The notes under the pieces were generated by a model. The model was not told the DNA's origin and made no database searches. It saw only the letters and a list, made by a program, of their open reading frames with translations. This document shows positions 1-55,739 of a stretch of DNA of 64,000 nucleotides, in pieces. The first letter of the stretch is position 1, and the number at the start of each line of letters is the position of its first letter. A program made the translations under genes and the position numbers. The stretch is from a virus, in IMG/VR virus record IMGVR_UViG_3300037231_000119, positions 1 to 64,000 of that record, one strand, 5' to 3'.

Positions 1-628
1 GTTTTAGGTGATACGGATGGCAGAAAAGGCTAACGATATTTGTTCTTTTAAGAACTGTCTGTTTTAGGTGATACGGATGGCAGAAAAGAAATAATGAACT
101 CTTTCTAAGACTTCTAGCTTGTTTTAGGTGATACGGATGGCAGAAAAGATGTCTGAACCTATTAAGAAACCCCCAGTTATGTTTTAGGTGATACGGATGG
201 CAGAAAAGATGATCAATCTCATCGACTGGGTCACCTATAGGTTTTAGGTGATACGGATGGCAGAAAAGTTTGGTAGGGTGGTAGATGCAACCGTGGCCGT
301 GTTTTAGGTGATACGGATGGCAGAAAAGAAAATGGAGTCTACTAAGAGCGCCTTGGGATCGTTTTAGGTGATACGGATGGCAGAAAAGAAGAAACATCAA
401 ATTATGGGTTCGCAGCCCCCGTTTTAGGTGATACGGATGGCGGAAAAGAGCAACTTGTGGGCTGGATTGGTTGGCGTAGGGTTTTAGGTGATACGGATGG
501 CAGAAAAGTTTCCTGGATCAACTTCTTAGTCGCGCTTTGTGTTTTAGGTGATACGGATGGCAGAAAAGAGCCAGCCATTGTTGATAAATGCTCTCTAAAC
601 GTTTTAGGTGATACGGATGGCAGAAAAG
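1..628. CRISPR. CRISPR array, 11 repeats of 28 bp, spacers 32 bp
   Basis: Eleven copies of a 28-bp repeat begin at 1, 61, 121 and every 60 bp to 601. The repeat starts GTTTTAGGTG and ends GGCAGAAAAG. Ten are identical; the eighth (421-448) has A to G at 442. The ten intervening 32-bp spacers are all different, and another 32 nt of unique sequence (629-660) follows the last repeat. The 28/32 geometry is that of type I-E/I-F arrays, but the repeat lacks the usual internal palindrome (only its TTTT and AAAA ends can pair), so no subtype is assigned. No cas gene lies in the window. The array starts exactly at base 1 and may continue upstream. Leader side is unknown. Confidence 0.93.
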
Positions 629-1325: not shown

Positions 1326-1757
1326 TTAGCTTAAGTCTAGCGGCCAAAACATAATTTGGCCAATAAATTCGACGCTAATGTGGTAGATCCCCTTGGCTTG
1401 GGCTGATTCTTTCACGCTCGTTATTTTCGCTTTCGTAACACTCCATAACGTTTCAGAAGTTGAACGATCTTCTAAACGAAGACTTACATAGTTGCTGGCA
1501 GCAATGTCCTGGAACAGAGGGCGAAGATTGACGGCCTGAACACCTCCAGAATTTTTTGTGCGAACGATTGTAAAACTTCCCTTAACTGAATTCTGTCCAC
1601 CGCCCGCAATTTCTTGGGGATACGGGCTGTTTATACCGTAGATCGAATACTCGCCAGAATCTTGACTTATATTAACACTCTGAGTAACTGGATAGATTTT
1701 ATTGTTACAATATAAGCGTACGAGGGCACTAGACACTATAATCGATTGTTGAGCCAT
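1326..1757 (-). CDS. Tail tube-like structural protein
   Basis: 143 aa, beta-rich, starting MAQQSIIVSS. Length and composition suit a tail tube, baseplate or sheath-initiator protein of the gp19/Hcp type. It is the most promoter-distal gene of the tail operon, ten bases after the 645-aa tail gene. The fold assignment is inference; structural role is supported by position. Confidence 0.55.
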   Translation of the reverse strand: MAQQSIIVSSALVRLYCNNKIYPVTQSVNISQDSGEYSIYGINSPYPQEIAGGGQNSVKGSFTIVRTKNSGGVQAVNLRPLFQDIAASNYVSLRLEDRSTSETLWSVTKAKITSVKESAQAKGIYHISVEFIGQIMFWPLDLS

Positions 1758-1767
1758 AAATTAAACC

Positions 1768-3705
1768 TCAGGGGCCATATACATAAGAAATTTCGTTAGC
1801 CCCTGGAGTGGGACTTTCCCAACCGCCTAAACCGATCGAATTTGGAAAAAGCACGGTGTATATAACTGTGACACCCGCTGCCGTAATCGTGTCAATCAAA
1901 TTCTGGGCATACACGCGACCGCTTGCCGTATCCGTTAAATATCCTTGATAGTAACTTCCATTGCTCGGTAAAGTAATTGGACTGTCCTGAATTACCAATA
2001 GCACTGAAGATCCGATAGGATGGTCCTGTTTGAGAAAATATGCGGGGCTGATAAGTAGTGTTCCACTACTGGGGGACGCGATGTATGGGATCGGACCTTC
2101 TTGATTTTCAGTTCCGTAACCAATGATGATATGCCCGGATGAATTTGGAAACCCGTCGCTACTAGCAACCGTAATTACGTGGCTCGTTTCGCCATTTACG
2201 TCTTCAGTTAGGGTAGTACTGGCGCCACCAACCACGAAACTTTGACTCGTGTCAAATATATAAGGCCCCAATGTTGTTGGTAAACTTGGTCCGGCATCTG
2301 CAACAGTAGAGGCCGTAACATTTGTCAAGGTAATTACGTTATCGCTTATAGTATATGTTAATAGAGGAATAGCGGCCATCAGCGCAACATAGGCCTCATT
2401 GGCAACGGTTGGTGCTGAATCACCGCTGCTAACATCAACCTCAACCCCAATAAAACCAGCAGGAGCCGGATCGGTATTCCCACCATCAACATTGAACCAA
2501 AAATAATACTGGAAACTTGGACCTTGATCATCTATTAAGTAGTACTCGCCAGCACCAGAAGCTGGCATGTCTACGGCCGCAGGAATAATGAATTGTGATA
2601 CTGGAGTTTCGGTTACTCCATGAAGATGCATTGATCCAATACGACTTCTCTTGATAACCTGGGTCGTAGCTGGCATAAAAATCTGTAGAATATTGGCTTC
2701 AGTTTGGTATACGGCGGCATAGTATTGCTTACTCAAAATAGTCTCTCGAGTAGGTGTATAGAAGAGAATGGCACTATCCGTACCTTGCACTACAATTCCA
2801 GTAGTTCCCGTAGGATTACTTATTTGAAAATACGCTATTCCTACAGCGCCTCCCTGAGAAGAAACGATAGGAAATGACCCTTCAAGATCCGAAGACGCAA
2901 AACCACCGCCAAAAATATTCACGTATTGAAGCGGCTCAACAACGCCAAGATCCGGATTTGCTCCACCAGTCCAAGTAAATCTGAGTAGGCCACCAGACTG
3001 ATTAGATATGGTCCATTGAGTTGAAAAGTTTCCACCCGCAGCAACTTGAGAAGGAAATAGGAAAACGTTTTGTGATCTGCCACCTAGGACTGTAACCGAT
3101 GAAGATGCCCCTATGGTATCTGAAACCAATTCGACATAGTTTCCATTACCGCTATTGTTTACTATCGCGCTTCCTGAAACTCCTAGATTGCTGAGTCCAA
3201 TTGAAATTGCGTTAGCGACCTCTTGAGCTGTGGCGGCAGCAATGCTTGTAAATTGAGCGGTAAAAAATGTGATAGTTTGAGTAGGAGTTCCGTCAAAATT
3301 AACTATGAGGGTGTCACCATCTTGCAGGGCATATGGCTCGATAGTTTGCGCGGAGGAATCGGCCTTAACGAATAGGTCTCCAAATACGGCGTCTAAAATA
3401 TTATTTATAAGATCTCTGACCTGTTTACGATTTTTGACTTGGATTCCAATTGTGCGAAAAATATCATCTGAAAGCCCAATTGTAGGGTCTCGAGTAATTC
3501 CGTAATTTGCCAGAAGCAGGTCCAAATAATTCCCTTGGGCGGTCACAACATACAAAGAATCGTTCACGGCCTGTACGGAATTGACCAGATACGCTGAGGG
3601 ATTAGAAAGTGCGCCAAGAACCGCGTTGACAACAGGTCCACGAATCGCGGGGTTTAAATATTGGCGTAAACGAACTGCTTCTTGTGCTGGTGTTGTTACG
3701 GCCAT
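1768..3705 (-). CDS. Baseplate/tail structural protein with shared WYNV-DPAP-type module
   Basis: 645 aa. The N-terminus (to about residue 110) resembles phage tail/baseplate-adaptor proteins. Around residues 395-440 it carries a module with YYFWFNVDGG followed by DPAPAGF and GVEV, also found in the 2616-aa and 543-aa proteins of this window. The rest is low-complexity beta-rich sequence. Its start codon is 1 nt from the stop of the giant upstream gene, so the two are probably coupled. Probably virion-associated. Confidence 0.7.
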   Translation of the reverse strand: MAVTTPAQEAVRLRQYLNPAIRGPVVNAVLGALSNPSAYLVNSVQAVNDSLYVVTAQGNYLDLLLANYGITRDPTIGLSDDIFRTIGIQVKNRKQVRDLINNILDAVFGDLFVKADSSAQTIEPYALQDGDTLIVNFDGTPTQTITFFTAQFTSIAAATAQEVANAISIGLSNLGVSGSAIVNNSGNGNYVELVSDTIGASSSVTVLGGRSQNVFLFPSQVAAGGNFSTQWTISNQSGGLLRFTWTGGANPDLGVVEPLQYVNIFGGGFASSDLEGSFPIVSSQGGAVGIAYFQISNPTGTTGIVVQGTDSAILFYTPTRETILSKQYYAAVYQTEANILQIFMPATTQVIKRSRIGSMHLHGVTETPVSQFIIPAAVDMPASGAGEYYLIDDQGPSFQYYFWFNVDGGNTDPAPAGFIGVEVDVSSGDSAPTVANEAYVALMAAIPLLTYTISDNVITLTNVTASTVADAGPSLPTTLGPYIFDTSQSFVVGGASTTLTEDVNGETSHVITVASSDGFPNSSGHIIIGYGTENQEGPIPYIASPSSGTLLISPAYFLKQDHPIGSSVLLVIQDSPITLPSNGSYYQGYLTDTASGRVYAQNLIDTITAAGVTVIYTVLFPNSIGLGGWESPTPGANEISYVYGP

Positions 3706-38828: not shown

Positions 38829-38930
38829 CACTTACTTAAATAAGGTCTCATAGATTAACCAAGGGGTCAAGGGAATTTTTGGACGGATCTGTCCTTGGAA
38901 GGCTTTATTCTTAAATTTAGGCCAAAATCG

Positions 38931-39117
38931 TAAACTAAAACAGTTGAAAACCAAAATCCTCAATGAAATCAACAAACACTTAAAAGAATACTTGGATAAA
39001 CCAAAGAAGAGAAAGATGACTCTTATCTATCATGGCTAAGAGCAATTAATACAAACTATTATTGGTTAATAGTAAAATAAATTATTAGTTTTGGTTAAAA
39101 TACATAAAAAGAAAGAA
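38931..39117. repeat. Duplicated intergenic element, copy A
   Basis: About 187 bp matching 55553-55739. The first 70 bp are identical, the rest about three-quarters identical, ending in both with GGTTAAAATACATAAAA. Each copy lies in a divergent intergenic region just upstream of a + strand sigma-70-like promoter. The identical part could encode KLKQLKTKILNEINKHLK and onward, but neither copy has a start codon. Possible origin, regulatory or RNA element. Confidence 0.75.
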
Positions 39118-41173: not shown

Positions 41174-41194
41174 TTAGTTCTCCAAAAGTTTAGC

Positions 41195-41292
41195 GTAGTG
41201 GGCCAGGGATTCGAACCCCGGACCCAACCTGTTCTAGGATGGGAATCGAACCCATCGGGGCAGTGCTAACTGCAGTACCGGACACCCACTAC
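41195..41292 (-). tRNA. tRNA-like sequence with two T-arm hairpins
   Basis: 98 nt bounded by a perfect 8-bp stem (41195-41202 with 41285-41292). Two T-arm-like hairpins are present on the - strand: GGGTTCGATTCCC and GGGGTTCGAATCCC. Read as one class II tRNA, the first hairpin would be the anticodon arm with loop TTCGATT (CGA, Ser), CCT-AGAAC-AGG the variable arm, but position 37 would be a pyrimidine and no normal D-loop GG fits. Alternatively the 3' ends of two tRNAs are joined. No CCA is encoded. Could be an attachment-site relic near the recombinase. Confidence 0.5.
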
Positions 41293-41358
41293 GTTAAATA
41301 GAAGCTACCATGAAGGGGGAGGCAGAGTCAAATGAAAAATAAGGGCAAAGATTATTTA

Positions 41359-41387
41359 TTGACGCTAGCCATAAGCTGTGATAGGTT
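41359..41387 (+). promoter_or_regulatory. Sigma-70-like promoter of the structured RNA
   Basis: TTGACG at 41359-41364, 17 nt, TAGGTT at 41382-41387. Same -35 and spacing as other promoters in the window. No open frame starts downstream on +, so the product is probably the RNA from about 41394. Confidence 0.5.
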
Positions 41388-41393
41388 AACTAT

Positions 41394-41645
41394 ATAGCGG
41401 CGCCGAAAGCCAATGGGAAAGCAAGCTACGAAACCAAAGGCCGATTCCAGCAACCTGCGAACGTGGGTTGGGTAGGTGACCGTAAATGAGTGGGCTGGCA
41501 GATGTGACTGCCAGGGTCTTCCGGAAGCACTATCCAGGGCGGAAGTTAAATAGGTATGAGGCGCGAGCCTAGGGGTAAATCGAGAATCCCTACCCACTAA
41601 AATTTAATGTCCCGGGCCGAAGGCCAAAGGGGCTACGGGATTGAA
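41394..41645 (+). ncRNA. Candidate large structured non-coding RNA
   Basis: About 250 nt without a usable reading frame but dense in secondary structure. Long-range stem TGGGTAGG (41469-41476) with CCTACCCA (41589-41596) encloses hairpins CTGGCAG/CTGCCAG (41495-41501/41508-41514), CTTCCGGAAG (41518-41527) and AGGC-GCGA-GCCT (41559-41570, a GNRA tetraloop). A 3' stem TCCCG/CGGGA (41610-41614/41636-41640) holds GGCC-GAA-GGCC. The 5' part is A/G-rich single strand between short helices. A promoter lies just upstream. Not recognised as RNase P, tmRNA or a group I intron. The ornate phage RNAs GOLLD and ROOL, often near tRNAs, are the closest analogy. The exact ends are uncertain. Confidence 0.5.
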
Positions 41646-41654
41646 TTGGCGAGC

Positions 41655-42635
41655 TTATAGGCGGCCCATTCTTCGGTCAATGAGATTGCATTTATTACAC
41701 CAATTACCTCCCTTAAGGTGATTTCCATCAATTTTTAATTTATGTCCTCGTTTGCAGTCAATGCTGTACTTATGGTATTGCGTTCCCAAATAAACTGTAT
41801 CTTCTAAAACGCCACCTTTGGATTCCACTATATCCTTCAGTTCTTTCAACCTATCGTCATGTTCACTGCGGTACACCTTCTTCAGATCAATTTCAATGGG
41901 TCTTTTAACATCAAGGCTAATTCCAAATTCGCCCAACCTATTGAAGATAAGGGCTTCTAGGTCGCTTTTATCGAGTTTGGGGCCAAAAGTAGGTATTACG
42001 ATTAAATTAATTCCATTTTCGTTACAGAGTTCTACTTTCTTGCAGTCGTTATCTTGAAGAGTTTTTAGTTGTTTCTGGCCGCCCCAACTTTTAATGGCCT
42101 TATAGTGCTGTCTTCCTTGATATTCGAATGCGAGTTTTAATTCCTCATTATAACCATCTAATTCTAATCCTTTCAGCCACTTAGGGTACTTGGTTGGGAA
42201 CGGTTTACCGAAAATGGCTTCTAACATCGCCCTACAATAAGCTTCTCCAAAATAAATCTTGCATTCTGGGCACCAACTACCGCGTATTATATTCCGGGGC
42301 GTTGCGGACCAGACGTGCTTCTGTGGGCACTCGAAATCCATTTTGGTGTGATTACCGATATACTTATCCGACAGCGTAATACCACCACGTTCTTTAGCTA
42401 AGTTACTAATCCTTTCGAACTGTTCTTCTTTATTAAGAATGTGGTCCCTAGCGAGAGGAGCTTCTTTCACAATACGTTCCACAAAACCATGTTGGTGAAT
42501 GGAGGCGTGTAAGGAACCATCTTTTTTACGAAGCTCTTTTAGGCTAGTAAACTTACGCGCTTCTTTTAGACAATTGTCGTAATTTTTCAAATAGCCTGAG
42601 GGTCGAGGCCCCAACTGTATTGTATTTATTGGCAT
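41655..42635 (-). CDS. Zinc-ribbon PD-(D/E)XK-type (homing) endonuclease
   Basis: 326 aa from MPINTIQLGP. GNHTKMDFECPQKHVW...SWCPEC is the treble-clef repeat seen in many environmental and phage proteins; a second copy (CKRGHKLKIDGNHLKGGNWC) lies at the C-terminus. Between them ELDGYN and FEYQGRQHY fit a nuclease core of the Vsr/EDxHD class, followed by CKKVELCNENGINLIVIP. Free-standing homing endonuclease is the best guess. No ribosome-binding sequence is seen; an upstream ATG at 42653 is also possible. Confidence 0.7.
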   Translation of the reverse strand: MPINTIQLGPRPSGYLKNYDNCLKEARKFTSLKELRKKDGSLHASIHQHGFVERIVKEAPLARDHILNKEEQFERISNLAKERGGITLSDKYIGNHTKMDFECPQKHVWSATPRNIIRGSWCPECKIYFGEAYCRAMLEAIFGKPFPTKYPKWLKGLELDGYNEELKLAFEYQGRQHYKAIKSWGGQKQLKTLQDNDCKKVELCNENGINLIVIPTFGPKLDKSDLEALIFNRLGEFGISLDVKRPIEIDLKKVYRSEHDDRLKELKDIVESKGGVLEDTVYLGTQYHKYSIDCKRGHKLKIDGNHLKGGNWCNKCNLIDRRMGRL

Positions 42636-43090
42636 ATAAAATATATGTATCATATGTCTGCATAAATAGGAAGGATTTTTGGCACGATTTCTATATAAAA
42701 ATTTTTAGTGAAATCAGGGGGTTAGGACGGACCAATTTAGGGCTTAAATTTTAGGAAAAATAAAATTTATTTAGTGATATCAGGCACTTAGAATAAATGT
42801 AGTATCATGGGCCTTTACTTTCCCATACCCTAATAGACACTGCCTTGAGGGAATTATGTCAATCATTTCATATAGTTACGTTGAATTTGTGTGATCAAAC
42901 TTTATACATATACACCATATGACACATAGGTATACTGTCATTCTACTAACAGGGGTCGTGACACATGGACGCCCATGCAAGGTTGATGCCTGGAGACAGC
43001 TCGCTATAGGCGCGCCACGCATTGTATGCACTCCTATGACTCCCGATGCCTCAAGTCGTCTCATATGGCATCGTGGCGCGTCTAATGGGT

Positions 43091-46747: not shown

Positions 46748-46900
46748 ATGGAACTCTCAACTAAGATGTTTATGGTTTACGAAATTGCCTACCTCATGGG
46801 CAATAAGCATCTTGACCTGCCCAAAGCTCATAGACTGGCTAGCAACTTCTCGGATGCTGAATTGAATCGAATCTATAATGCTCTTATCAAAAGGAACTAA
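46748..46900 (+). CDS. Small helical protein
   Basis: 50 aa: MELSTKMFMV, ending NALIKRN. GAAAGGA upstream. Its 3' end (CTATAATGCTCTTATC...) is copied as the leader before the gene at 47563. Not recognised. Confidence 0.5.
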   Translation: MELSTKMFMVYEIAYLMGNKHLDLPKAHRLASNFSDAELNRIYNALIKRN

Positions 46901-55527: not shown

Positions 55528-55552
55528 ATCCCCGAATTAAACCTATAAATTG

Positions 55553-55739
55553 TAAACTAAAACAGTTGAAAACCAAAATCCTCAATGAAATCAACAAACA
55601 CTTAAAAGAATACTTGGATAAATCAAGAGAAAGAAAACTTACTCTTCTTCTATCATGAGAAACAACCAAAGCTACAAACTATTTTACATAAACAGTAAAA
55701 TAAATTTCTTTCCTTGGTTAAAATACATAAAAGAAAGAA
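55553..55739. repeat. Duplicated intergenic element, copy B
   Basis: Second copy of the 38931-39117 element. Base 55553-55622 is identical to copy A; later parts differ mainly by short changes. Ends GGTTAAAATACATAAAAGAAAG, just before a + strand promoter. Fills the 345-bp gap between divergent genes. Confidence 0.75.

Follow-up and report, generated by a model that had tools for sequence, protein, structure and literature searches.

A structured noncoding RNA with a conserved fold in a gene-free region of a large soil-type bacteriophage

Introduction

The gene-free gap at positions 41174-41654 of a large bacteriophage sequence raises the question of whether it encodes a structured RNA and, if so, of what kind. 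The stretch analysed here (the window, 64,000 nucleotides) comprises bases 1-64000 of the 162,446-base IMG/VR phage record IMGVR_UViG_3300037231_000119 (G000), from a large soil-type bacteriophage whose closest cultured relative found is the Myxococcus phage Mx1 (28% protein identity). The gap spans 481 bases and has a G+C content of 51%, compared with 44% for the record. An earlier reading of the window from its letters alone (the original prediction) placed a candidate new structured RNA with its own promoter here. Comparison with a homologue confirms that a structured RNA is present and supports that interpretation: by this comparative evidence, positions 41393-41599 are a real structured noncoding RNA whose fold is kept through compensatory changes.

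A conserved fold on the plus strand

The homologous copy (locus L080) was found by a scan with back-translated stretches of a minus-strand reading frame that is itself meaningless. It lies at 2985-3214 on the minus strand of a 62-kb contig (G011, IMG/VR 3300014501_000019) from the same phage clade, and many proteins are 60-90% identical. The two RNA copies are identical at 167 of 202 bases (83%); the neighbouring integrase gene has 60% DNA identity, and the flanks of the RNA have almost no similarity. The predicted start is near 41393 and conservation ends at 41599; these are the best limits of the RNA. The 3' domain is identical at 100 of 111 positions (90%) versus 67 of 91 (74%) in the 5' domain.

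Minimum free energies are not significantly better than those of shuffled sequences on either strand (z of -0.86, -0.65 and -0.97 on the plus strand), so one copy taken by itself does not demonstrate a structure. The homologue provides a separate line of evidence. A fold computed from the window only contains 53 pairs that can be tested in L080, and 52 of them still pair. These include all nine in which both bases have changed, which is the covariation that the original prediction had named beforehand as a check; one null model reached this result in 0 of 20,000 trials and the other in a fraction of 0.00015. In a curated structure all 46 pairs form in both copies, nine of them with two-sided changes, and sliding the partners by 1-3 columns reduces pairing from 100% to 29-51%. 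When the trimmed copies were folded independently, the elements A, B, D, E, F, H and K (see below) were common to both. The two copies contain five and six G-U pairs, which become mismatches when the minus strand is read, such that only 41 and 40 of the 46 pairs form there. Because of these G-U pairs and the promoter described below, the RNA is assigned to the plus strand.

Architecture of the RNA

The predicted elements, all on the plus strand, are as follows.

41393-41599 (207 bases), +: structured RNA, with a predicted start near 41393 and conservation ending at 41599
41397-41483, +: Domain 1, in which arm B/C and hairpin D meet at a three-way junction closed by helix A
41397-41404 (GCGGCGCC) with 41475-41483 (GGUG(A)CCGU), +: helix A, with bulge A41479 and one two-sided change from GC to AU
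41409-41441, +: arm B/C, GCC 41409-41411 with GGC 41439-41441, a symmetric AA/AA internal loop, and UGG 41414-41416 with CCA 41434-41436
41451-41470, +: hairpin D, 8 base pairs, loop GAAC 41459-41462; in six of eight pairs both bases differ yet pairing is kept, loop identical
41489-41598, +: Domain 2, a multibranch junction closed by helix K, AGUGGG 41489-41494 with CCCACU 41593-41598
41495-41514, +: hairpin E, 7 base pairs, loop AUGUGA; compensatory two-sided changes at two pairs, G-C to G-U at one
41518-41523 with 41540-41545, +: stem F, CUUCCG with CGGAAG, with a conserved 16-nucleotide loop, predicted in both copies
41559-41570, +: hairpin G, AGGC-GCGA-GCCU, with the GNRA-type loop GCGA at 41563-41566
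41571-41576 with 41586-41591, +: stem H, AGGGGU with AUCCCU, loop AAAUCGAGA; the copies do not differ in stem or loop

The same fold of Domain 1 is predicted independently for both copies. Its long-range helix A is the 8-bp helix of the original prediction, with one bulged A. In arm B/C all pairs are invariant except the third of C, which is G-C in the window and C-G in L080 (UGC/GCA); this change was read by hand, as MAFFT places a gap there, and is a further compensatory change hidden from the automatic alignment. In Domain 2, helix K has one G-C to G-U change, and the unpaired strand UAAAUAGGUAUGAG is conserved. Stem F, being invariant, neither supports nor opposes pairing; more generally, F, H and most of K are predicted helices with no variation to probe them. 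Hairpin G is the weakest part of the model, since its loop-closing pair is A-G in L080 (C41562 to A), where an alternative pairing is predicted. The GNRA loop noted originally is therefore present as GCGA, and the hairpin that carries it is weakly supported. The several perfect hairpins of the same reading are found at 41451-41470 and 41495-41514 together with further stems, and the A/G-rich joints are likewise seen in the sequence. A putative pseudoknot could form between AAUCG of the H loop and CGAUU at 41442-41446.

Promoter and coding status

One promoter-like element precedes the RNA.

41359-41387, +: promoter, -35 TTGACG at 41359-41364, 17-nucleotide spacer, TGTG at 41377-41380 (extended -10), -10 TAGGTT at 41382-41387

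A consensus promoter scan does not call this site, which is too weak, and the argument for it is therefore one of conservation and not of consensus strength. L080 has TTGACT-17-GAATCT with TGTG equally far from the RNA, and in a gapless alignment of the upstream 34 bases 12 are identical, 11 of which fall in TTGAC, TGTG and -10 positions 2 and 6. The prediction that the RNA has its own promoter is thus borne out at the functional positions, and from their conservation we infer that the RNA is transcribed. No intrinsic terminator was found directly 3' of the RNA in either copy. The only long open reading frame (ORF), of 81 codons on the minus strand, is interrupted by three stops in L080; there is hence no conserved gene in the region, as originally proposed, and by this reading of the sequence the RNA is noncoding.

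Searches for known families and further copies

With Rfam 15, GOLLD, ROOL and HEARO included, there is no match at gathering thresholds anywhere in the window, and at permissive E-values (up to 5) both copies give chance matches only. The statement that the RNA fits no known family withstands this search; the hint of kinship with GOLLD or ROOL does not, there being no Rfam match and the RNA being much smaller (~207 nucleotides). Neither ARAGORN nor Rfam gives a match to a tRNA or transfer-messenger RNA. A Ro60-type Y RNA and a retron RNA were also considered and set aside, as no TROVE or reverse transcriptase gene is present in G000, in the related phage G003 or in the 62 kb of G011.

BLASTN searches of phages and plasmids with either copy as query returned nothing relevant. 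Exact-pattern scans, which diverged homologues may escape, found among viral contigs only L086, on the same contig as L080, with all remaining loci unrelated, and among genome contigs ten loci, all unrelated. A covariance model (R1) built from the two copies scores 267 and 283 bits on them and found no additional copy in ten related phages, Mx1 and 395 bacterial genomes of one phylum, which may not be that of the host; an 11-bit match in G004 lies inside a predicted gene and was discounted. Scans of viral contigs for relatives of the flanking nuclease and integrase found nothing, and the integrase has only distant integrases as matches in INPHARED.

Neighbourhood of the RNA

The two features closest to the RNA in the window are both on the minus strand.

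about 41200-41297, -: tRNA-like element, folding z of -3.19, not called by ARAGORN
41655-42653, -: treble-clef/HNH nuclease gene, convergent to the RNA

Both neighbours of the original prediction are therefore there, with the tRNA identity of the first not upheld by ARAGORN. Elements of this tRNA-like kind, each combining an acceptor-type stem with two T-arm-like hairpins (GGTTCGATTCC-type), occur in three related phages (window 41200-41297, minus strand; L018 at ~1405-1510, plus strand; G007 near 46854, minus strand). The integrase gene (a tyrosine recombinase) is on the plus strand 0.7 kb upstream of the RNA in the window, and in L080 the RNA is divergent from the recombinase homologue, 0.1 kb away. 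Downstream sequences are entirely different between the copies and upstream genes are differently arranged, which favours an RNA that acts independently of its neighbours.

The GGCCGAAGGCC hairpin after 41609 was rejected as part of the RNA, as it belongs to an HNH-gene cassette, at whose 3' end it also occurs in G003; the 62-base G003 match at window 41615-41676 consists of this HNH gene 3' end and the adjoining hairpin. Window 41613-41676 is a remnant of the 3' end of an endonuclease-VII/HNH gene (frame TEEWAAYKLANSIP) and overlaps the end of the nuclease gene now there, which is a different one; as read by eye, the remnant survives in another frame of that gene. This arrangement suggests that one mobile nuclease has been replaced by another beside the RNA.

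G003 has the recombinase without the RNA. At the corresponding place, beside its recombinase and HNH gene, is a different gene-free region (159322-159760; L023 1523-1960) with a TTGACA-16-TATCCT promoter-like site on the minus strand, a CACC-GAAA-GGTG hairpin and GC-rich hairpins. This diverged noncoding region gives no credible Rfam match and no R1 match; it is possibly another RNA.

Other features of the phage

The phage also carries a type V CRISPR-Cas locus (window 1-628 and G000 159246-162446; L030 15246-18446). It includes genes for a Cas12f/u4-like nuclease of 511 amino acids and Cas1 (e-like), an 89-amino-acid ORF in the Cas2 position with no family match, a region resembling a trans-activating CRISPR RNA (tracrRNA) with a terminator, and an array of 28-nucleotide repeats (GTTTTAGGTGATACGGATGGCAGAAAAG) and 32-nucleotide spacers that spans the record ends. 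The ends overlap by 127 identical bases (window 1-127 and G000 162320-162446), and by this overlap the assembly is circular or terminally redundant. Two further gene-free regions of the same phage, window 38925-39117 and 55547-55739, are a duplication that is 84% identical over 195 columns.

A proposed trans-acting RNA and its alternatives

We consider it moderately probable that these copies represent a new family of stand-alone, trans-acting phage noncoding RNA whose conserved 3' domain binds a putative partner. A sigma-70-type host RNA polymerase would transcribe the RNA from its dedicated promoter, and the ~207-nucleotide transcript would fold into a 5' three-way junction and a 3' multibranched domain. 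The 5' domain, in which hairpin sequences drift while pairing is kept, may serve as a structural support; the nearly frozen purine-rich single strands of the 3' domain would form a recognition surface for one specific partner, either an RNA or a protein of host or phage, bound in trans during infection. Action in trans is proposed because the RNA has a dedicated promoter and keeps neither of its neighbours, and the identity of 90% compared with 74%, together with the conserved unpaired strands, suggests that the 3' domain is a binding surface. Several observations weigh against this: the two known copies come from one phage clade, no intrinsic terminator was found directly after either, the candidate partners TROVE/Ro60 and reverse transcriptase are absent from the sequences listed above, and shortly after the L080 copy begins an ORF that has a good Shine-Dalgarno sequence.

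That ORF raises the alternative of a cis-acting 5' leader, either a riboswitch or protein-binding, which would control this 74-codon cysteine-rich ORF in L080 and whose gene would have been lost in the window, leaving nuclease-gene debris instead. The L080 ribosome binding site and ATG come soon after the RNA with no terminator found between them, and GGGUAGG (41470-41476) could pair with CCUACCC (41589-41595) without a mismatch, making a two-structure switch possible; the region of this proposed alternative helix is invariant, however, and hence has no variation to test. We regard a leader as rather unlikely, as the ORF has no Pfam domain, only a marginal PHROG match and no homologue in G000 or other relatives, so that the copies do not share a downstream gene, and the window RNA is 83% conserved though no such gene follows it. 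An orphan guide-RNA scaffold for a Cas12f/TnpB-type nuclease, similar to a tracrRNA or omega-RNA, is another reading; the conserved part stops sharply after CCCAYUA and gives way to non-conserved, guide-like sequence. The same phage encodes the type V locus with its own tracrRNA candidate, with which the RNA has CCGUAAAU(G/U)AGUGG in common (13 of 14 bases), and GTAAATNAGTGG is restricted to these RNAs in 1.15 Mb of these phages. The motif match is weak, though (shuffle P = 0.023, BLAST E = 0.06), and was first spotted by eye; there is no conserved anti-repeat, the best repeat pairings being scattered and differently placed between the copies; and the putative guides have no other convincing match. 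Moreover, the genes flanking the CRISPR-Cas locus have contiguous homologues in G011, so that the locus is missing from that position there, and PF07282 finds no such nuclease in 62 kb of G011 and in G000 only the one at 160.5 kb, which has its own tracrRNA candidate. We therefore find a guide scaffold improbable, and equally doubtful its extension, that an orphan scaffold kin to the phage's miniature type V tracrRNA is a free-standing RNA that would load, redirect or block Cas12f/TnpB-type nucleases. The RNA was rejected as the tracrRNA of the phage's own array, since the candidate for that role sits at 161.9-162.1 kb and the RNA here has no conserved anti-repeat. Cas12f-like relatives sought in 398 genomes for tracrRNA comparison were too distant for use.

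It seems very improbable that the RNA is a group I intron in degenerate form, or another self-cutting ribozyme, tied to the neighbouring homing endonuclease. The nested GCC-AA-UGS/SCA-AA-GGC resembles P4-J4/5-P5, with helix A where P3 would be, and a nuclease gene adjoins the RNA; but that gene runs on the other strand and is missing beside the L080 copy, a promoter of its own precedes the RNA, which lacks any exon context, neither copy has an Rfam intron match, and no P7-type pairing was seen by eye after P6. Least credible is a DNA element, such as a site for the nearby tyrosine recombinase or for replication or packaging. An integrase gene lies within 1 kb of both copies, but a related phage has the integrase without the element, and substitutions that keep wobble pairs are meaningful only in an RNA made from the plus strand.

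Comparison with known systems

Phage-encoded structured RNAs are few, and those that are understood led to unforeseen biology, such as RNA cages, guide RNAs and anti-CRISPR RNAs. The RNA described here would add a compact phage family whose fold is supported comparatively well and for which there are a promoter and a covariance model, ready for synthesis, probing and pull-downs, and the locus illustrates that one distant homologue can be enough to verify a structure which folding-energy tests miss. Like cis leaders and riboswitches, the RNA has a multibranched junction with a terminal closing helix, and the L080 copy is directly upstream of a ribosome binding site, whereas it has no conserved downstream gene and matches no Rfam riboswitch model. 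HEARO, the IscB-associated RNA, is likewise a structured RNA beside an HNH-type nuclease gene, but the RNA here has no Rfam match, and its nuclease is convergent, has not been identified as IscB and does not lie beside the homologous copy. Cas12f tracrRNA and TnpB omega-RNA scaffolds (PMC10097598) are similar in size class, in having multiple stems and in their sharp 3' boundary, but the RNA lacks a same-strand adjacent nuclease gene and a conserved anti-repeat. GOLLD and ROOL, too, are structured phage RNAs, often near tRNA genes, with neither a function nor a protein partner assigned (PMC12286853). The RNA differs from them in having no Rfam match, in its ~207 nucleotides compared with the >800 nucleotides of many GOLLD RNAs (PMC12286853), and in that its single tRNA-like neighbour is no tRNA island.
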